Source: Candidatus Cloacimonadota bacterium
GTDB taxonomy: Bacteria; Cloacimonadota; Cloacimonadia; Cloacimonadales; WRIO01
Length of the DNA stretch: 38,792 bases
Assembly (NCBI GenBank): GCA_029553545.1
Contig: JAKPKU010000194.1
Coordinates: 1-38,792 of the forward strand
Reading direction: 5' to 3'
The notes under the pieces were generated by a model that searched no databases, had not been told where the DNA came from, and worked only from the letters and a program-made list of their open reading frames with translations. Below, piece by piece: positions 26,296-38,792 of the stretch. Made by a program: the position numbers and the translations under genes. The number at the start of each line of letters is the position of its first letter. Position 1 is the first letter of the stretch.

Positions 26296-26591
26296 TTTAA
26301 TCATAGAAATTTTTGCATACTAACCAAAATACCTTATAAAGAAAATAAAAAATCATAAATAAAAAAAACACTCCCTCTATATATAGGGCTTATAAAATGG
26401 TGTTTTTTGAAAACTATTTTTACCTAAATCAGCAGATGACTACTACGAGCGTGTTTAGAGATGATTTTTTTTCGTACCAACAACTTTCCTTAGTTGGCTC
26501 AGATCAATTACATTTCATCTCTCTGTTCTAAGCTTTCAGTATTCTTCAAATCTGAATACCAGAATTACGCTTTAATCAGCACCCTCTCGTA
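26296..26591. other. Intergenic stretch with terminator and clustered inverted repeats
   Basis: About 296 bases between tRNA-Thr and the NTF2-like gene. After the hairpin at 26363-26408, four further pairings occur in order: CTAAA (26424-26428)/TTTAG (26454-26458), AGAGATGA (26457-26464)/TCATCTCT (26515-26522), CAACT (26481-26485)/AGTTG (26492-26496), and GTATTC (26539-26544)/GAATAC (26554-26559). This is denser than expected for a spacer. It could be a structured 3' UTR of the minus-strand operon or a small RNA on either strand. I do not recognise a known RNA family. Confidence 0.4.
26363..26408. terminator. Bidirectional terminator between tRNA-Thr and the minus-strand secretory operon
   Basis: AAAAAACAC (26363-26371) pairs perfectly with GTGTTTTTT (26400-26408), enclosing a smaller CCCT...AGGG stem. 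T-rich tracts flank it on both strands, so it can end the alaS-tRNA transcript and the opposing operon. Confidence 0.6.
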
Positions 26592-27560
26592 TTAACCTTC
26601 TACCATGAAATCGCCGAGATCAAAAATCGAATCCAATGGTGTTTCTTTTTCTGGTTGCCATGACCTAACGTATATTTTAGGTTGTTCTTCATTTGTAAAA
26701 TCGATTATTAAAAACAAATACCCTTTATCTGCATAATTGTCAGCACGCCAGGTTTGAATCATTCTTACCCCATAAATATTGTTATTATTGGGAGAAATCG
26801 AAATATCAATATCATCAAAATTTACTCGTATTTGCTTATTAACGCTAAAGATCTGGCTAATACTTTTCATATATTCGTTTTTATTCATCTTCAAGTAAGT
26901 AACTTTTGTAGGGTCGCTCAATTTAACCTCTTTCTGGTTTTTATCTTCTTGTAGCACCCTACCCACGATTATTAGGGCATGTTCGCTAAACACTTCATTG
27001 AGGAAGGTTAAGTCTTTACGATTATACGCTGTACGATAATTTTCAACAAAGCTCAAAATCATTTGTCTACGCCTTGTTTCTTTTGCAGGTAACTTATTAT
27101 CCATTATTTTCAGATAATTATGATATTCTAAAGCAAAGCTTACATCATCAATTCTACCGCCATGATTTATGATAATCACAAGTTCTGCGCTCTCTGTTTT
27201 ATCTGTATGACGTACAGACACGGGTATTCCACGTAATTCAAAGCCTGCATGCTCTCTATTTAAAAGACTCAGTCGCAAATCACTTTCTGTACATGTAAGA
27301 GGTGTACTTTCCCAAATGCTTTCAATGCGGTTCTTAGCTTGAGCAGTAAGATTGATATTATTTAAGTCTAATGATGATTTATTATAAAAGCTTTCATTAA
27401 ACTGATTAATCAGCATTTCAACACTTGATTGAATACTTTTACTAAAATCTTGATTTGCTCTATAAAAGACGTTCACATGTGTCTGCATTTGTGCATAGGC
27501 AAGCGATGTTGTAAACAACAGCATTAACAAAACAAGTTTTAATCTAAAAACTGTATCCAT
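26592..27560 (-). CDS. Secreted protein with C-terminal NTF2-like domain, unknown function
   Basis: A 322-residue protein with a signal peptide (MDTVFRLKLVLLMLLFTTSLAYA, cut probably before QMQT). Residues about 25-155 are unassigned; about 160-300 look like an NTF2/SnoaL-type domain: ILSFVENYRTAYNRKDLTFLNEVFSEHALIIVG, and GVRMIQTWRADNYADKGYLFLIIDF near the end. It is the last gene of a three-gene minus-strand operon; its ATG lies inside the end of the PKD gene (22-nt overlap) with GGGAG upstream. NTF2-like folds bind small ligands or serve as scaffolds; no catalytic residues stand out. It probably acts in the periplasm or at the cell surface with its two neighbours. Confidence 0.75.
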   Translation of the reverse strand: MDTVFRLKLVLLMLLFTTSLAYAQMQTHVNVFYRANQDFSKSIQSSVEMLINQFNESFYNKSSLDLNNINLTAQAKNRIESIWESTPLTCTESDLRLSLLNREHAGFELRGIPVSVRHTDKTESAELVIIINHGGRIDDVSFALEYHNYLKIMDNKLPAKETRRRQMILSFVENYRTAYNRKDLTFLNEVFSEHALIIVGRVLQEDKNQKEVKLSDPTKVTYLKMNKNEYMKSISQIFSVNKQIRVNFDDIDISISPNNNNIYGVRMIQTWRADNYADKGYLFLIIDFTNEEQPKIYVRSWQPEKETPLDSIFDLGDFMVEG

Positions 27561-29032
27561 ATAACTCCCTTTCCTTTTATTTCATTTTCAAAATCATCAA
27601 TTTTAACTTTTTTTAACAAATCCATGCGACAATCATCTTGTCCTGGACCAATAATATTTAATACTTCTTTACTGACAGGGCTAAAGATTAAAACATAGCA
27701 TTGATCTGTCTTCTGGAAATTACTTCTTTTACCATAGATAATTCGACCATCTTTTTTCATATTGACAAGCCACTGAATTGCGTTATCAACTTCAGTAAAT
27801 TCAAGCAAGTCTGACAAGCCATCGACTAAGTTTAAAACTATTTCTTTTTCTTTTTCTACTATAGGCTGTTTTTCTTGAGCAATAATTTCTTGTTTTTCTA
27901 TTAATGCATTATCATTTACAACTATCACTTTACTTACACTAACGGCTCTGTTTATGGTTAGAGTCACAGTATATTTCCCATTTTTATTATACTTATACTT
28001 TGGTTTTGTCTCGGTTATGGGATAGCTATCATCACCAAATTGCCATTGTATTTCATTAACGCTAATATTACTTGCAATTGGGGTTAAGCACACCTCTGCC
28101 CCATCTTGTATTATTTCAAAATCTACCTTCACAAGCTTGCTAAAGTCAAGATCTTCATTAAAGGTATAAATAATCGGGTGTTCATCCAATATGCCCTTTA
28201 TATTGTCTGCCAGCTCTGCAAGCTGAGTATCGTAAGTCATAACGACTTTTTCAGTTTTTTTCTGTACAGAACTATGTCCATCGATATATAGCTCAGCATT
28301 TCCACCTACTACTACTTTATATATTTTATCGCTATCAAATGCAAGTTTTACATTATTCACTGGCATTTGCATATATCTCACGTCAAAAGATACTGGGTAT
28401 ATATCTGGTGTTTGTGGGTTTGGTTTTTGTACATTTGATCTTTTTCTGGATTCTTTTAAATATTCGTACAATATATCATACAAATACAAGTTTAAATCTG
28501 CTTTATTTTCATACATTATAGCTTGTGGAATGAGCAATGTTTGTGCATAAAGGTTCAAATAAATGGGTATTATATCTCCTAATCCCAAAATGTCTTCTTT
28601 TTCAATAGCCTCTTGCATACGACTTTTGATGCGCTCACTCTCTGCATCAAGCCATGTTTTATAAGCAGTTTTATTCATATAGGCTAACATATATTTATTG
28701 TTTTTATCTGAATATGAGATATATTTAAAGTTGGTTAGTTTTATTTGACTAGACATAGCGATAGTTTGCCTCAATTCACCCTGAATTTTGCCGTCTCGCT
28801 CGGTTTGATCGTCAGAGATATCCACCTTAACTGTTGATTGCATTTGCAATATCATTTTTGATAAAGCTGTTTTTTGCATTTGTTCATCATTTACACACTC
28901 TTTAATACTTGAAACACATTCTCCGATATAATAATCGCTTGAGTTCTTTATTTTTAAATAATCTTCTGAGCTGGCATTTAGTAAACACACTGAGAAAATT
29001 ATTATAAAAATGATGAGAAAATGAACTTTCAT
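27539..29032 (-). CDS. Secreted protein with LPP20/FlgT-like N-terminus and PKD-like domain, unknown function
   Basis: A 497-residue protein with a signal peptide (MKVHFLIIFIIIFSVCLLNA). Residues about 25-150 (alternating AESERIKSRMQEAIEKED and QTERDGKIQGELRQT segments, with YMLAYMNKTAYKTW) resemble LPP20/FlgT-like envelope domains; this likeness is tentative. A PKD-like Ig fold lies at about 305-380 with QWQFGDDSYPITETKPKYKY and GKYTVTLTIN. The C-terminal 100 residues are unassigned. I chose the ATG at 29032, which has GGAGAGG upstream, over an upstream in-frame start at 29053. It overlaps the NTF2-like gene by 22 nt and follows the 29067-30182 gene by 34 nt. Confidence 0.7.
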   Translation of the reverse strand: MKVHFLIIFIIIFSVCLLNASSEDYLKIKNSSDYYIGECVSSIKECVNDEQMQKTALSKMILQMQSTVKVDISDDQTERDGKIQGELRQTIAMSSQIKLTNFKYISYSDKNNKYMLAYMNKTAYKTWLDAESERIKSRMQEAIEKEDILGLGDIIPIYLNLYAQTLLIPQAIMYENKADLNLYLYDILYEYLKESRKRSNVQKPNPQTPDIYPVSFDVRYMQMPVNNVKLAFDSDKIYKVVVGGNAELYIDGHSSVQKKTEKVVMTYDTQLAELADNIKGILDEHPIIYTFNEDLDFSKLVKVDFEIIQDGAEVCLTPIASNISVNEIQWQFGDDSYPITETKPKYKYNKNGKYTVTLTINRAVSVSKVIVVNDNALIEKQEIIAQEKQPIVEKEKEIVLNLVDGLSDLLEFTEVDNAIQWLVNMKKDGRIIYGKRSNFQKTDQCYVLIFSPVSKEVLNIIGPGQDDCRMDLLKKVKIDDFENEIKGKGVIWIQFLD

Positions 29033-29066
29033 AACCTCTCCTTTAAAAAACAATTATCCAAAATAT

Positions 29067-30182
29067 TTACCTCAACAAAAACCGACCACGATAATCACCA
29101 TCAAACTTCTTTATCTTTATACTTTCATCACGTGGTATTGAAAGGATCATTTTTGCATCCCAAATCCCACTCTGTGAAATCAATTCATTTACAGATATTG
29201 TTGTATACAAAAGGTGAACTTGATCATATATAGCTTCTTCAAACAATAAAGAAAAACTGATTCTGTCATCTTTTACTTCTTCTACCAATAAGCTGAGCTG
29301 GCAATCATTACTCATCTTTGCAAGGAATTCATGCAAAGTCATTTCTCTTGTCCTGCTATTGTCACCATATAGTAAGAATTTAATATTGAGGTTTATCTGA
29401 TCTTCATTTTTGTATGAAAAGAAAAGGTTGTACAGTGATTCAGCGGGGTATTTGCTATCCCATACCAGTTTTGTACTATCGCCTTCAATAAAGTAGTACA
29501 CTTTTCGACTAAAACCATCTGTGTTTGATTTCTCTTCGTAAATAGTCATTGCTGGATCTTGAATAGCATAAGTGTGCCATTGCTCAATATTAAAATTCTG
29601 TAGCTTATTTGGTATGATTCTATCAAGCCTTTCAAGCCAGTAATCTCCTAATTCTTTTTTATCCATTCCAGAGAGATACTGTCGCTCTTTGGGCATTGTT
29701 ATTTGCATTATATTACCTTGATTTATAATCTTCATTTGTAGCCATTTACTATCTGATGTATAATACTCATAATTGCTATTCTCATCTAATGTACTAAAGA
29801 AGGATAATATCTCATTTTTCTTCAGTTTACCTTTATTATTTATTTGTAAATCTATATTTGCATCATTCCAATACTCTTTCTTTTCTTTTGAGAAAACAAT
29901 AAGAGTTTGCATCAGTTTTTGGTTAAATAAAAGCAAATAAGGTTGTTGATAAATCTCGTTTAATTCATATCCCTGCGCAATAAATACGCTATCAGCAGGG
30001 CAATAAGGCAAACGTAAACCTTTCAAACTCTCTTCTCCGTTTAAGTTTTGTATAACCAATGGTAAATCATATTTATCGATTCTAATGCTATCGAATGTAA
30101 TTTCATTTGCATAAAGAACAATGCAAAAAACAAAAACGAACTGCATAACCACGATTATTAAAAAGCGTAACCAATGCTTCAT
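29067..30182 (-). CDS. Secreted protein of unknown function, first gene of a three-gene envelope operon
   Basis: A 371-residue protein that I do not recognise. It has a signal peptide or anchor (MKHWLRFLIIVVMQFVFVFCIVLYA). The mature part has no cysteine-rich or obvious catalytic motif and appears beta-rich, ending FDGDYRGRFLLR. The ATG at 30182 has GGAGG 5 nt upstream and is preferred over the upstream in-frame start at 30200. A promoter with a perfect TTGACA lies just upstream. Co-transcription with the PKD and NTF2-like genes suggests a shared envelope function. Confidence 0.7.
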   Translation of the reverse strand: MKHWLRFLIIVVMQFVFVFCIVLYANEITFDSIRIDKYDLPLVIQNLNGEESLKGLRLPYCPADSVFIAQGYELNEIYQQPYLLLFNQKLMQTLIVFSKEKKEYWNDANIDLQINNKGKLKKNEILSFFSTLDENSNYEYYTSDSKWLQMKIINQGNIMQITMPKERQYLSGMDKKELGDYWLERLDRIIPNKLQNFNIEQWHTYAIQDPAMTIYEEKSNTDGFSRKVYYFIEGDSTKLVWDSKYPAESLYNLFFSYKNEDQINLNIKFLLYGDNSRTREMTLHEFLAKMSNDCQLSLLVEEVKDDRISFSLLFEEAIYDQVHLLYTTISVNELISQSGIWDAKMILSIPRDESIKIKKFDGDYRGRFLLR

Positions 30183-30209
30183 TCTTACCTCCATAACCAT
30201 CAGAATAAC

Positions 30210-33554: not shown

Positions 33555-36500
33555 TTACTTCATCAATATCATTTTCTTCATCATTTGACCATTCTCATGA
33601 GTAAGCTTATAGAAGTAAATACCTGAGGATACTTGTTTACCTTGATCATCAAGTCCGTTCCACACAGCTTGGTGAGAGCCGCTTGTATAATGTGAGTTTG
33701 TAAGAGTCTTCACTTTTTGTCCTTTAATATTAAAGATATCTAAGCTGACATTTCCTTCGCTTGGCAGATCAAATGCGATTGTAGTGGTTGGGTTAAATGG
33801 ATTAGGGTAATTTTGATGCAATTTTAGGCTAATAGGGTTCATAATATGATCATCATTGCTTACATAATTATCTGGCGCATTGGTGGTGAATTTGATAGCC
33901 AAACCACCAGTTAAAGGTGATGCTGTTGCAGGATAGATATTTGCATAAGTATAAAGCACGCCGTCATTTTGTAAGTGATTTTCAATACCTACTGTAGCAT
34001 AGTTATTGGAAGATGCAGGGTTGTCAATAGTATGATATTGGAAAACAATATCGCCATCGTTGTCATTCTTTGGGTAAAGTATGATTTGGAATTTTTCTAA
34101 TGAGCTATTATTAAAGCCATTATAAGTATCTTTCCAATCGATAATAAATCTATTATTCGCTTGATCGTGGTAGTATCTGACTTTGACATCATCCCAAGTG
34201 GTTGGTGCTGTCATTAGCCCTTTTAAGTCATCCCAATATGGTGCCAACATTGCATATGGACCTAATGCAGAAGGAATACTCCAGTTGGTAAAGTCATTTT
34301 GCCAAGTAGTTCCAAATGATGCCCAGCCATTGGAGCAGACAGTCATACTATTATAATCTTTGCCATAATATTTAAATGTAATAGGTAGATTGATCGTAGC
34401 AGATTCATCATCTTTAAGAGACATAGTTGTCGCTGAATTATCGAGCTCAACCCAATTATAGACTGGGGCTTGAGAATAATTTGTATCATTGCTATCATAA
34501 GCAAAGTACCCGTATTTATCAGGACCAGTTGGAGCAGTATTACTTACATTGCCGATAGTTACAAAGAAATATGCACGTGCGATTTTGCCATCACTTGTAG
34601 TAAAATCAGCATAGAATTGAGCGTTTCTTCCCACATAGCAATCGCTTTGTACAGTAAGATCAAAGTTTATATCAGCAGCATTTCCACTAATAATATTACT
34701 TACAGGAATAGGTGTTGCGCTACAGCTGACAGCGTCTGTCATTGGATTAATTACTACACTAAGGTTTTCTGCATTGAGGGAGCTAATATTCTTAGCAGTT
34801 ATCTTGATCGCTCTTGTCTCTCCAGGATTGATAATGCCGTTATTTCCAACTACTTCTACAGCTGATATTTCAAAAGAAAGTCCACCAATAATAGAGATAA
34901 ACTTGCTAATATTATTTGTACCAAAATTCAAAGTAAAGGTTTCTACTGTTTGATCTGGGCATTCATCTGCAATATTTACAGTAATAGAAGCTGTTTGAGT
35001 ACCACCAGCAGGAACATTTCCAAAGTCTAAAGTATTCGCAGAAAAGCTTGTATAATCTGATGCAGCGCTTATATTAGCTGTAGCATTATTAATTGCTGTA
35101 TTACCATAGTTTTTCACAGTGACTTCTAATGTAGAGCTTTGACCAGATAGAATCTGTCCATTTGCAAATTCATGAGACACGATACCCAGTCCGCCAGTGT
35201 GATTCACAGCTATATTTTGAACAATAGGCAGGTAGTTTTTAGCTGTGATAGTAACTAATACATTATCCCCATCATTATCGTCAATTGGTAAAAATGCATA
35301 CCCGTCGGTAATTCTGGCATAAGTGTAATTATTATTATCTTTCGTAGCTGTAACATAGCCATGGCTTATACCTGGTACTTGAATTTCGAGGTGATGAACA
35401 TTCTCATTGATATTTGTGGGTAAATTATGAGTGATAGTCTTTGGATTGAGTTTCCAAAGGCTGAGAGCGGGATCGCTGAGCATATTGTAGATTTTAAAAT
35501 AAAAAGGTACATTTTCACTATTGCCCTGTGCATTGGGGAAATTATTATATACTTCAAGCTTACCGCGCATCACAGTTGTACCGAAGATTCGTGCATATTC
35601 ATCCATTACAGATCTAATCATACCTGATGAAATGCTATTATTTAAAGCGGTTGAAGTAAATAAAAAGCTTGGTCCAACAAACGCTACAGCACCATCTGGC
35701 TCTGTGGCAGTTCCTTTTGTCATCCAAACTTCACCAAAGCAAGGGTCATAATTGCTATTATCAAAATCACCATTATCACAGACAATTGAGTAGATAACAG
35801 GGGTTCTACCGCTATTATTTGTGGCATTAACATGATTGCGATAGAAGATAGGGAATTGCCAGCCATTGCCGCTTCCCCAGCCACGATAGGTGATATATTG
35901 AACACCGCTGTTAATTGAGTTGATAATTTGCTCAGTAAGGTATTCAGGAGATGTGCTACCACCTGATTCATTTTGATAGAAAACTGTATCTACTTGAGTA
36001 TAACCAGAAGCTTTAATCTTTTCATATATCCATCTTGAAGTATCAACAGGGCTTGTAGGAATTAAATTGCCAGAGGCATAGTTACCAGCCACGACTAAAG
36101 CCTTGTTTTGCCAATTATTGTTGTTAGCAACAGGAGCTCTTTCATAGCGAATTGTTTTACTGACAATTGTTTGTAACTCAGCTATGGAGTCAACACAAAA
36201 TCTACCTATCAGCATCTCTGGGAAGTAATCATTACCCTCAATCAGTCCATAATCAAGGTCAGTAGCACACACTTCAGGGTTGTCAGGAGCAGTCACATAA
36301 AATGTTGGAATCTTAAAATAGCTACTATTATTTGAGTCCCCGATGATTAACAAGTAGTCAGGTTTATTGATTGCCTCATTATAGTAATTTACAATTGCTT
36401 GCTTAATCTGCGTACTGGTAGGGCTTGCGCCAATGGTTTCTTTGTTGATCACATGAACGTCGAATCCACAAGCTTTTCTCCACTGCACATAAGAAGTTAA

Positions 36501-37097
36501 ATAATTATTTAGAGTATTATGAGAAATAATAACCATTGAAGGCTTTTTAATAGGAGAATTATGTAAATAAGAGTCTTGATAATTTGCTGCTAAGTGCTCG
36601 TACAAAGAGATGAAGCCCTCAGATACCTCATTTACTGTTTCAATTCTATCATAACCCTTGATACTCATATTAATTTTTTTGACTATAGAGTATTCATTGT
36701 TGCTTACTTGGAGGGGGCTAAAGGTCACAGTAAAGCCTCTCATCTCCTTAAAGATGAATTGATTTGTTATTTCAGCAAAAGCTGAATAATTGATGCTTCT
36801 ATTTTGTATAAGCTGCCCATTTTGATTGTAGCTTTCTATTTCCACACTCTGAATTTCGAGCTCTGCATTGTGGTATGGCAAGGCATAGGTCTTGCTTATC
36901 TTACATTCGTCAACCGTGCTTGAATGAGCTGTGTTCCAGTCTAAAAGCTTGTTTTCTAACTGTATTTTTACAACGTTATTTTGAGTTATTGCTTGATGAT
37001 TATAGAAATTAGACTGCATAGTTTGCTCATCGAGTTCGTATGCATTAATGCCTAAAATAAGCGTTAGCAGACTCATTATAAGACATAATCTCTTCAT
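33555..37097 (-). CDS. Gingipain-like C25 family secreted protein with T9SS sorting domain; catalytic His replaced by Trp
   Basis: A 1180-residue exported protein. Residues 1-19 are a signal peptide (MKRLCLIMSLLTLILGINA). A prodomain-like region precedes the C25 domain (about 185-545: PSMVIISHNTLNNYL, KPDYLLIIGDSNN, DYFPEMLIGRF). The Cys of the gingipain dyad is C440 in YSIVCDNGDFD. The position 33 residues before it, where gingipain RgpB has His (H211 to C244), is W407 in TYRGWGSGNGW, so the classic dyad is incomplete. Then come Ig-like/adhesin repeats, a beta-sandwich segment with FKYYGKDYNSMTVCSNGWAS, and a type A T9SS sorting domain (about 1090-1180, NYPNPFNPTTTI to MKKMILMK). It lies 20 nt after the M14-like gene in one operon; AAGGAG precedes the ATG. 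It may be an adhesin or a peptidase with altered chemistry. Confidence 0.9.
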   Translation of the reverse strand: MKRLCLIMSLLTLILGINAYELDEQTMQSNFYNHQAITQNNVVKIQLENKLLDWNTAHSSTVDECKISKTYALPYHNAELEIQSVEIESYNQNGQLIQNRSINYSAFAEITNQFIFKEMRGFTVTFSPLQVSNNEYSIVKKINMSIKGYDRIETVNEVSEGFISLYEHLAANYQDSYLHNSPIKKPSMVIISHNTLNNYLTSYVQWRKACGFDVHVINKETIGASPTSTQIKQAIVNYYNEAINKPDYLLIIGDSNNSSYFKIPTFYVTAPDNPEVCATDLDYGLIEGNDYFPEMLIGRFCVDSIAELQTIVSKTIRYERAPVANNNNWQNKALVVAGNYASGNLIPTSPVDTSRWIYEKIKASGYTQVDTVFYQNESGGSTSPEYLTEQIINSINSGVQYITYRGWGSGNGWQFPIFYRNHVNATNNSGRTPVIYSIVCDNGDFDNSNYDPCFGEVWMTKGTATEPDGAVAFVGPSFLFTSTALNNSISSGMIRSVMDEYARIFGTTVMRGKLEVYNNFPNAQGNSENVPFYFKIYNMLSDPALSLWKLNPKTITHNLPTNINENVHHLEIQVPGISHGYVTATKDNNNYTYARITDGYAFLPIDDNDGDNVLVTITAKNYLPIVQNIAVNHTGGLGIVSHEFANGQILSGQSSTLEVTVKNYGNTAINNATANISAASDYTSFSANTLDFGNVPAGGTQTASITVNIADECPDQTVETFTLNFGTNNISKFISIIGGLSFEISAVEVVGNNGIINPGETRAIKITAKNISSLNAENLSVVINPMTDAVSCSATPIPVSNIISGNAADINFDLTVQSDCYVGRNAQFYADFTTSDGKIARAYFFVTIGNVSNTAPTGPDKYGYFAYDSNDTNYSQAPVYNWVELDNSATTMSLKDDESATINLPITFKYYGKDYNSMTVCSNGWASFGTTWQNDFTNWSIPSALGPYAMLAPYWDDLKGLMTAPTTWDDVKVRYYHDQANNRFIIDWKDTYNGFNNSSLEKFQIILYPKNDNDGDIVFQYHTIDNPASSNNYATVGIENHLQNDGVLYTYANIYPATASPLTGGLAIKFTTNAPDNYVSNDDHIMNPISLKLHQNYPNPFNPTTTIAFDLPSEGNVSLDIFNIKGQKVKTLTNSHYTSGSHQAVWNGLDDQGKQVSSGIYFYKLTHENGQMMKKMILMK

Positions 37098-37117
37098 ATT
37101 AATTCTCCTTTAGTTTT

Positions 37118-38792
37118 CTATTTTAATAGTATTGCTTTTTTGGTTATAGTTTCATTATTATTAAATCTTAATTGGACAAAATATAAGCCAGAAGGTCTAT
37201 TTTGCGCATTCCAGGTAAATTGTTTGTTTTTGATTTGCGTATTGCTAAGTTCTTTTCTTTCTATTAATTGTCCCTTTATATTGAAAATCTTGATCTCTGC
37301 CGTGTCAACCTCTCTTGGAGTCTCATATTTCACATGTAAGACAGGGTTGAATGGATTAGGATAAATGCTTACTTTACTCTGTTCTGGTTTGATTACAACG
37401 TGATCATCGTTGGCAACACTTGAGACGCTTGCTGTAATTTGTATATTATCAATTTTCCAGCCAGGGTCTGTCAGCATTATATGATTTGCATTGCCTTCGA
37501 TGCCGTCTTTTAGTCTAAATCTCAAGTACAAATCATTTTCTATAAAATTATTTAATGATATTAATTCATGTTTCCAGCCAAAAGAATTGCCAGCAAACTT
37601 ATAGATTGAAATCCAATTCGCATCGTCATAAGATACCTCTACTGAGACAAAATCATTGTCCCATTCAGTATAAACTGAGTGCTCAAAGTGAAGATAAACA
37701 TCTTGCCCTGTATATCCGATCAGACTTAAAGGCGAAGACATAACAAGTGTGTAATCTGCATCTACATTGTAAAAACCATTGTCACTATAACTGTCTTTAA
37801 TAAAATAACTGTTATGTGTACTATCATTAACAACCAACCACGGGCCGTTCATTATCCAAAGGCAACACGTGCCCTCAAAGTCTTCGTAAAATATGTGATT
37901 GGTATAACCTGGTTCAAAGTGTAGATTATTATTTCCTGCTTGAATGTATATCGACCTTTTTATTGGTGCAAAGCCCTCTGTTATCAAGGTAAATTCATGC
38001 TGCCCTTCAAATGTTTCAATACTAATAGAACCATTGATTGAAATGATATCTTCAAACCCTTCTTGCTGCATTATTAAAGTGGATGAGAGATACTGGTCAT
38101 CATGAGACACTTCGATGTTGATAGTCGCAGGGCTTAATGGTTGTAACTCAATTTGAGTGGTGTTTTGTTGCTGATTATTAATAGTAAATTGCTGATATTT
38201 TGTAAGATATCCTTTTTTACTTACAATAAGATAATAAGTCCCTTCAGGAACAAAACGGTAAAATTTGCCATTTAGAGAATTGGATTTATTATTTTGAAAT
38301 GCTGTAGTATCAAGTCCGTCAATAGCAATATCGGCAGCAATTGGCTCTCGAGAAACACTATCTATCACTTGAACAATCTCAATTCCCGTTTCGAGTGGCG
38401 AGTTTTCATTATAATCAGTAAGCATATCAAAGAATTGATGTACAATTAATTTAAATATTTGTTTATTGTTTTGTATTTCATTAGGATCTGGCAAGATATA
38501 GTGTTGATCGTAAGAGATTGCAAAAGGAATAACACCATAATTCAAATAGAGCTCGTCAAGTAAGTTTCCATTCCTTCCCAAATTAGGACTTGCAGACCAG
38601 TTTTCACCAGCAATATCAGCCAATTTAGAGGTGAGGGTATACAGAGCTTGGTAATCGGGTGATTGTCTTACTTCAGCCCAATTATAGGGGAAATTGATCT
38701 CTCTCTGCATGAGCTCTTCTGTTAAATTAAAGAAACAAAAGTCAATCTTATAACTTTGTAAGAAATTCTTTAAAGCAGTAGTTTCACCTTCA
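37118..38792 (-). CDS. M14 carboxypeptidase-like secreted protein with T9SS sorting domain, N-terminus cut by window edge
   Basis: The frame is open to the window edge upstream of the internal Met at 38710, so the 5' part is missing. The visible N-terminal part (EGETTALKNFL, then INFPYNWAEVRQSPDYQALYTL and YILPDPNEIQ) resembles the end of an M14 zinc carboxypeptidase domain. The segment where the third zinc His is expected reads FFNLTEELMQ, and the usual catalytic Glu motif is not seen, so this may be an inactive homologue. Next come a carboxypeptidase regulatory-like domain (IEIVQVIDSVSREPIAADIA), a jelly-roll domain (FYEDFEGTCC to WKIDNIQIT), and a type A T9SS sorting domain (YPNPFNPVLHVKY to KKAILLK). 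The M14 call is moderate; the secretion signal at the C-terminus is clear. Confidence 0.75.
   Translation of the reverse strand, partial: EGETTALKNFLQSYKIDFCFFNLTEELMQREINFPYNWAEVRQSPDYQALYTLTSKLADIAGENWSASPNLGRNGNLLDELYLNYGVIPFAISYDQHYILPDPNEIQNNKQIFKLIVHQFFDMLTDYNENSPLETGIEIVQVIDSVSREPIAADIAIDGLDTTAFQNNKSNSLNGKFYRFVPEGTYYLIVSKKGYLTKYQQFTINNQQQNTTQIELQPLSPATINIEVSHDDQYLSSTLIMQQEGFEDIISINGSISIETFEGQHEFTLITEGFAPIKRSIYIQAGNNNLHFEPGYTNHIFYEDFEGTCCLWIMNGPWLVVNDSTHNSYFIKDSYSDNGFYNVDADYTLVMSSPLSLIGYTGQDVYLHFEHSVYTEWDNDFVSVEVSYDDANWISIYKFAGNSFGWKHELISLNNFIENDLYLRFRLKDGIEGNANHIMLTDPGWKIDNIQITASVSSVANDDHVVIKPEQSKVSIYPNPFNPVLHVKYETPREVDTAEIKIFNIKGQLIERKELSNTQIKNKQFTWNAQNRPSGLYFVQLRFNNNETITKKAILLK

Follow-up and report, generated by a model that had tools for sequence, protein, structure and literature searches.

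The window analysed here is a stretch of 38,792 nucleotides (nt) from a Candidatus Cloacimonadota bacterium (contig JAKPKU010000194.1), in which three consecutive minus-strand genes, A, B and C, occupy positions 26,592 to 30,182. Comparison of protein sequences indicates that the product of B is homologous to the N-terminal part, and that of C to the C-terminal part, of one secreted-type protein of about 610 amino acids (aa), here called BC, which most relatives appear to make as a single chain and the window genome as two. Genes of this family are linked to genes for PEGA- and FGE-domain surface proteins, and a second B-C pair of the same genome lies beside a diversity-generating retroelement (DGR). 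With a confidence that falls a little short of even, we favour the idea that B and C are two parts of one secreted envelope protein, a partner that would help to anchor, fold or display the adjoining PEGA/FGE surface proteins. The genes are:

29067-30182, minus strand: gene A, an open reading frame (ORF) of 371 aa from the ATG at 30182
27539-29032, minus strand: gene B, an ORF of 497 aa, its ATG preceded by AAAGGAG
26592-27560, minus strand: gene C, an ORF of 322 aa
27539-27560, minus strand: overlap of the B stop and the C start, exactly 22 nt

The spacing between A and B is exactly 34 nt, and the consecutive arrangement, the sizes, the gap and the overlap are all exactly as an initial annotation of the window, made from its letters alone, had described them.

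A profile of 34 fused proteins (alignment A1) matches window C at E 7.7e-74 and window B at 5.9e-18. Residues 1-290 of B match the N-terminal part of the fused proteins, at best with E 5.9e-9, and C is 22-30% identical to their C-terminal parts (alignment A3). Judged by hydropathy only, the N-terminus is hydrophobic in 67 of 71 fused rows and strongly so in A, B and C, and a later transmembrane-like stretch occurs in 0 of the 71 rows and in none of the three window proteins; this agrees with the signal peptides previously assigned to all three genes and suggests secretion. The parts recognised in B and C are:

28682-28936, minus strand: LPP20-like N-terminal domain of B, residues 33-117 (weak PF02169 match, family profile, fold match)
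27935-28111, minus strand: PKD domain of B, residues 308-366 (PF18911, PF00801)
27539-27907, minus strand: C-terminal domain of B, residues 376-497, matched by split-form B only among the loci compared
26592-27560, minus strand: content of gene C, an alpha/beta module followed by an NTF2-like domain (fused-family profile)
26688-26894, minus strand: part of the NTF2-like domain, C residues 223-291 (PF24125)

The PKD domain of B exceeds the Pfam gathering score with both profiles (PF18911, E 2e-8, 34.6 bits vs 27; PF00801, E 6.2e-6, 26.6 bits vs 23.5). It falls in a gap of alignment A4, with no counterpart in the aligned fused proteins, and B of the split form carries it together with a C-terminal domain that is likewise absent from the fused form. 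Against LPP20 (PF02169), B as a single sequence reaches E 0.25 and 12.2 bits, below the gathering score of 25.9, and the assignment is based on the family profile, which matches the LPP20 structure 4kzs at E 2.8e-6 (positions 25-107), and on a modest match of the B model to 4kzs, its best fold match (Foldseek E 8.8e-3, Z 6.7 over 143 residues). This model is poor overall (predicted local distance difference test, pLDDT, 57), good in residues 1-60 and 101-140, and poor past about residue 230, a part that covers the C-terminal domain. Of the earlier description of B as an LPP20- or FlgT-like start plus a PKD-like domain, the PKD domain stands by its own score, and the LPP20-like start, below the Pfam cut-off when B is taken alone, is supported through the family profile.

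The fused form gave a better model. AlphaFold2, run on a fused relative with an alignment of 71 rows, returned a pLDDT of 86.9 and a predicted template-modelling score of 0.85, and the predicted order is a small alpha/beta domain (LPP20-like), helices, a beta-sandwich, as we read the order of the strands, then an alpha/beta module and finally a domain with an NTF2-like fold. The last domain (residues 443-588) matches NTF2-like structures with a best Z of 16.1 over 120 residues and a root-mean-square deviation (rmsd) of 1.8, and Z values for such structures against the C-homologous region lie at about 14-16. The preceding module, at about residues 327-435, also has an NTF2-like strand order by eye and is barely covered by the list of fold matches. 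C itself matches PF24125 (Cds6_C) at E 1.8e-5 and 25.4 bits, just below the gathering score of 27, and this match and the fold of its homologue together uphold the earlier view of C as NTF2-like. Among PDB sequences a profile of the C part found nothing beyond weak, unrelated-looking matches, and Pfam searches detected neither a PEGA nor an FGE domain in any of the three window proteins.

The split form is not confined to the window. On contig C16 of the same genome lies a second B-C pair (44% identity to the window pair in B, 57% in C), and further split pairs occur in G103, the one other species of the genus compared, and, more distantly, in G043. The 22-nt overlap of B and C recurs in the second pair and in G103, and in G043 it is 4 nt. 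In a midpoint-rooted tree of 14 rows the second C and that of G103 form a group (99/98) with window C outside it (all three, 87/92), so that the window pair looks, from these alignments, like a diverged, older copy to which a PKD domain has been added. Relatives of C were found in 32 of 124 genomes of the phylum (for the most part titled Cloacimonadota in their records), mostly within frames of about 600 aa. In a tblastn scan of genome contigs C alone found no match, whereas the family alignment did: 457 of 542 candidate stretches passed, of which the best 80 were used. By record titles, from which taxa were assigned, the fused forms among these best 80 of 457 belong to Cloacimonadota, Ignavibacteriales, Calditrichia, Marinimicrobia, KSB1, Bacteroidales and others, and the fused protein spans Cloacimonadota, Bacteroidota, Ignavibacteria, Calditrichota, Marinimicrobia and KSB1, which contradicts the suggestion that these genes are specific to one lineage. 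The carriers include a named strain, Bacteroides stercorirosoris DSM 26884 (L245). Two loci were peculiar: L060 (8450-9787), in a complete genome without a C match, encodes a protein of 445 aa that carries a clear LPP20 domain (PF02169, 6.1e-21) and is distantly like B, and in L239 (Marinilabiliales) BC is split into four short frames within a shared gene order.

Genes for secreted PEGA/FGE proteins are frequent neighbours of BC. Taking as near those genes within two genes of BC and as far those more than four genes away on the same contigs, we found a PEGA/FGE gene in the near zone at 22 of 44 full-length BC loci of the phylum and at 33 of 80 loci of the genome-contig scan. In the phylum set, which leaves out the split-form loci L035, L058 and L059 and 7 of 51 sequences that were fragments, 28 of 128 near genes and 2 of 73 far genes were PEGA/FGE (p 1.3e-4), the far genes coming from contigs chosen for BC or reverse transcriptase (RT). 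The corresponding figures for the genome-contig set, where FGE-only ORFs under 130 aa, which can be template repeats, were left out, are 42 of 241 and 5 of 243 (p 2.5e-9). Both counts are of PEGA/FGE genes only, RT or Avd neighbours such as those at L114 and L115 not being counted, and the two sets are not independent, several Cloacimonadota contigs being common to them and L224 being the L115 locus. Furthermore, 25 of 56 strong places for the N-terminal domain of the PEGA family (alignment A6) lie within 5 kb of BC, compared with 0.47 expected under uniform placement; 14 of the 56 are training rows of the profile, all near BC, which leaves 11 of 42. At the level of genomes, BC occurs in 28 of 48 with this domain at E 1e-5 and in 4 of 76 without it (p 5e-11), and with a strict cut in 23 of 24 and 9 of 100, or 12 of 13 and 9 of 100 after removal of the 11 training genomes. 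Short gene pairs that by eye resemble nucleotidyltransferase/HEPN-type modules were also seen near BC and PEGA/FGE genes at L061, L063 and L076.

Associations of this kind might also arise if BC and PEGA/FGE genes simply lie in the same variable surface-gene islands and have no functional connection: a genome can hold many PEGA domains (21 genomes gave 1 to 46 matches each), and the contigs around BC and PEGA/FGE genes are often short. The excess of strong places near BC, which holds among those outside the training rows, the difference between near and far genes of the same contigs in both sets, and the appearance of the linkage under titles of several phyla make this explanation, in our judgement, quite improbable.

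The second B-C pair of the window genome has a complete DGR directly upstream (L035, 13665-15590), made up of genes for HRDC, bAvd and RT and a template repeat whose translation is GSNRVNRGGSWNNNDNNCRVANRNNN. Stretches similar to this DGR lie on contigs C166, C75 and C216. The best variable copy of the template, elsewhere in the genome, has 20 differences, all at template adenines, and two other copies show a less clear-cut pattern (template adenines account for 16 of 26 and 19 of 42 differences). BC and a DGR share a neighbourhood at four further loci, with mismatches at template adenines of 15/15 (L186), 22/22 (L191), 21/21 (L195) and 24/26 (L224). At L176 and L114 BC is close to an RT, with no adenine-specific repeat pair. 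The window itself gave no profile match to RT, Avd or HRDC, and it is the paralogous pair on contig C16 that is accompanied by RT, template and variable repeat. BC and DGR-type RT, the latter defined by a cut of our choice at E about 1e-33, co-occur weakly by genome (12 of 28, p 0.027), so that it is to PEGA/FGE proteins, and not to the DGR, that BC seems to be tied. Two proposals were discarded: BC as an accessory protein of the RT, because BC is of secreted type, and BC as a protein found only with DGRs, in view of the 12 of 28 DGR-type genomes. A lone HRDC-type gene stands beside mutL (identified by eye) in G103 (L057, 15599-16063), a genome without a DGR RT match, and is possibly a DGR remnant or has a separate role.

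These observations can be assembled into a provisional mechanism. With its LPP20-like domain, beta-sandwich, alpha/beta module and NTF2-like domain, BC would serve for docking or as a scaffold beyond the cytoplasm, perhaps at the wall or outer membrane, and would most likely help to anchor, fold or display PEGA/FGE proteins, which are C-type-lectin-like and some of them DGR-diversified, possibly through direct contact. BC bears the marks of a secreted protein and should not act in reverse transcription, a step that it could not join if secreted, so that the simplest role would be on the display side. In the window, where the copy carries a PKD domain and has no FGE gene linked to it, this role may have drifted. 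A wider proposal, which we hold more tentatively, gives the BC family the role of a dedicated partner of PEGA/FGE receptors outside the cytoplasm, whether as anchor, chaperone or co-receptor, and extends this to receptors that DGRs hypermutate. In Bacteroidota, Cloacimonadota, Calditrichota and their relatives, BC would then belong to the display side of cellular DGR systems. According to the survey by Roux (PMC8144416), 71% of the sequences in the 24 main DGR target clusters have no recognisable domain outside the variable region. For the question of how bacteria present DGR-diversified receptors, a family that recurs beside the targets would be a concrete candidate for anchoring or display, and its presence in B. 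stercorirosoris DSM 26884 opens its role to test.

Several findings weigh against a partnership of BC with PEGA/FGE proteins, besides the weak co-occurrence with RT. Linkage is not interaction. Proteins near BC supplied most of the sequences for the PEGA profile, and a PEGA/FGE gene within two genes is missing at 22 of 44 and at 47 of 80 loci, some of the contigs ending there. Eight mostly Bacteroidales-titled loci (L210, L211, L215, L225, L226, L237, L239 and L244) place BC in another fixed order of gene sizes, which looks vertically inherited, and in the one tested, L211, the neighbours are housekeeping genes for DUF2148, DUF2797 and RecX proteins. G103 has B-C and no match to the PEGA-family N-terminal domain or to RT, and the only PEGA protein found in the window is a different one, 7 kb from A.

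The fold comparisons suggest another reading, in which BC is a general cell-wall-binding envelope protein and its linkage to PEGA/FGE genes arises from shared wall surroundings, with no joint complex. The top Foldseek match of the fused model is Bd1075 (E 4.9e-6), described in PMC8938487 as an L,D-carboxypeptidase having an NTF2 domain, and the next are other NTF2-like proteins; Csd6 matches with Z 14.0 over 138 residues (rmsd 3.2). The Cds6_C match of C and the housekeeping neighbourhood of L211 point the same way. As reported in PMC8038945, Pgp2 binds peptidoglycan in its NTF2 pocket, with Lys307 important for the binding, and that lysine aligns with the invariant L282 of the BC family, in a weak pairwise alignment (E 0.27). 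The same peptidoglycan chemistry is thus unlikely, which also counts against the docking role that we favour, and wall binding alone does not explain the 11 of 42 non-training PEGA-family places near BC; we regard this reading as rather unlikely. Less probable still is that BC works in the periplasm as a chaperone or assembly factor serving outer-membrane and secreted proteins at large, PEGA proteins of several kinds among them, possibly in connection with type IX secretion. In favour of this, the adjoining PEGA proteins have FGE or TonB_C domains at their ends, with beta-barrel-like regions below cut-offs, and two window proteins carry type IX-type sorting tails; against it, a chaperone would not usually be divided into B and C and carry a PKD domain.

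Gene A does not appear to be part of the B-C set. Searches of Pfam, NCBIfam and PHROGs assigned it to no family with a meaningful score (best NCBIfam score 14 bits, cut-off 250), in keeping with its initial description as unrecognised; a two-row profile found no match among PDB sequences up to E 10, and one PEGA protein aligned with it over just a short piece (26.9 bits). Among the 124 phylum genomes it is found in its own and in G103 (47% identity), of the same genus, with a weak 73-residue match in G120, and we take it to be a genus-restricted neighbour. In G103 it stands alone between alaS and fusA (both named by eye), with no B or C adjoining. Between alaS and A in that genome (L057, 8793-9683) there are direct repeats (68 bp, 91% alike) and, by eye, small tandem repeats.

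Of the ideas weighed, the one that we hold to be least probable is the trio of the initial annotation, in which the products of all three genes make up a small surface complex peculiar to the genus. The genes share a strand, the 34-nt gap and the 22-nt overlap, and the place of window C outside the other two C sequences means that the ancestor of the genus could already have had the trio, G103 having since lost it. There, the searched gaps beside A hold no remnant of B or C, and B-C lies on a separate contig of 4,816 bases, so that the predicted gene order fails in that one species; nor does the second pair of the window genome have a copy of A. The notion of an undescribed envelope system thus gains strength for the B-C pair and lacks support for the three genes.

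In the window, A-B-C is flanked by a tRNA-Thr gene, just after alaS (named by eye), and a UPF0047 gene. GGAGG directly precedes the ATG of A, and an in-frame ATG at 30200 is an alternative start that would give 377 aa. At 33555-38710 the gene of a C25-family peptidase adjoins that of the PEGA protein (3.4 and 6.9 kb upstream of A), and both products have type IX-type tails. Two possible expression signals lie around the genes:

30238-30210, minus strand: promoter-like site TTGACA-17-TAAATT, upstream of A and well placed
26363-26408, minus strand: AT-rich hairpin downstream of C, a weak possible terminator

The region has 26 promoter-like sites against 21.7 (standard deviation 4.7) in shuffles, not above chance, no structure in it satisfied the terminator scan, and the hairpin, at z -1.0, does not stand out from shuffles. 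A promoter and a terminator common to the three genes, as proposed earlier, thus lack statistical support, and a single transcript for the three genes is plausible.

Compared with known systems, B and BC resemble the LPP20 family (HP1454, 4kzs) in the N-terminal domain (profile E 2.8e-6), and differ from it in that BC is longer, has an NTF2-like domain and, in B, shows no clear lipobox by eye. One of four fused members tested, that of B. stercorirosoris (28.3 bits), reaches the Pfam cut-off for LPP20; the other three fall below Pfam cut-offs, and surveys based on domains could therefore miss the family. Csd6, Pgp2 and Bd1075 have the same NTF2-like fold in a secreted-type protein (Csd6, Z 14; Cds6_C, 1.8e-5), and in BC Pfam found no L,D-carboxypeptidase domain. 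In the literature searched, which covered few subscription papers, we found no description of the BC family or of its link to PEGA/FGE. The accessory proteins of DGRs that the available part of PMC10053308 names (Avd, HRDC and MSL) do not include BC, which differs from these in being of secreted type and in occurring also without a nearby DGR. PEGA-domain and FGE-sulfatase surface proteins, whose domains BC does not share, are its frequent gene neighbours. The arrangement at the second B-C pair and at four other BC loci, which adjoin RT, template and adenine-mutated copies, resembles that of cellular DGR cassettes whose targets are of FGE type.

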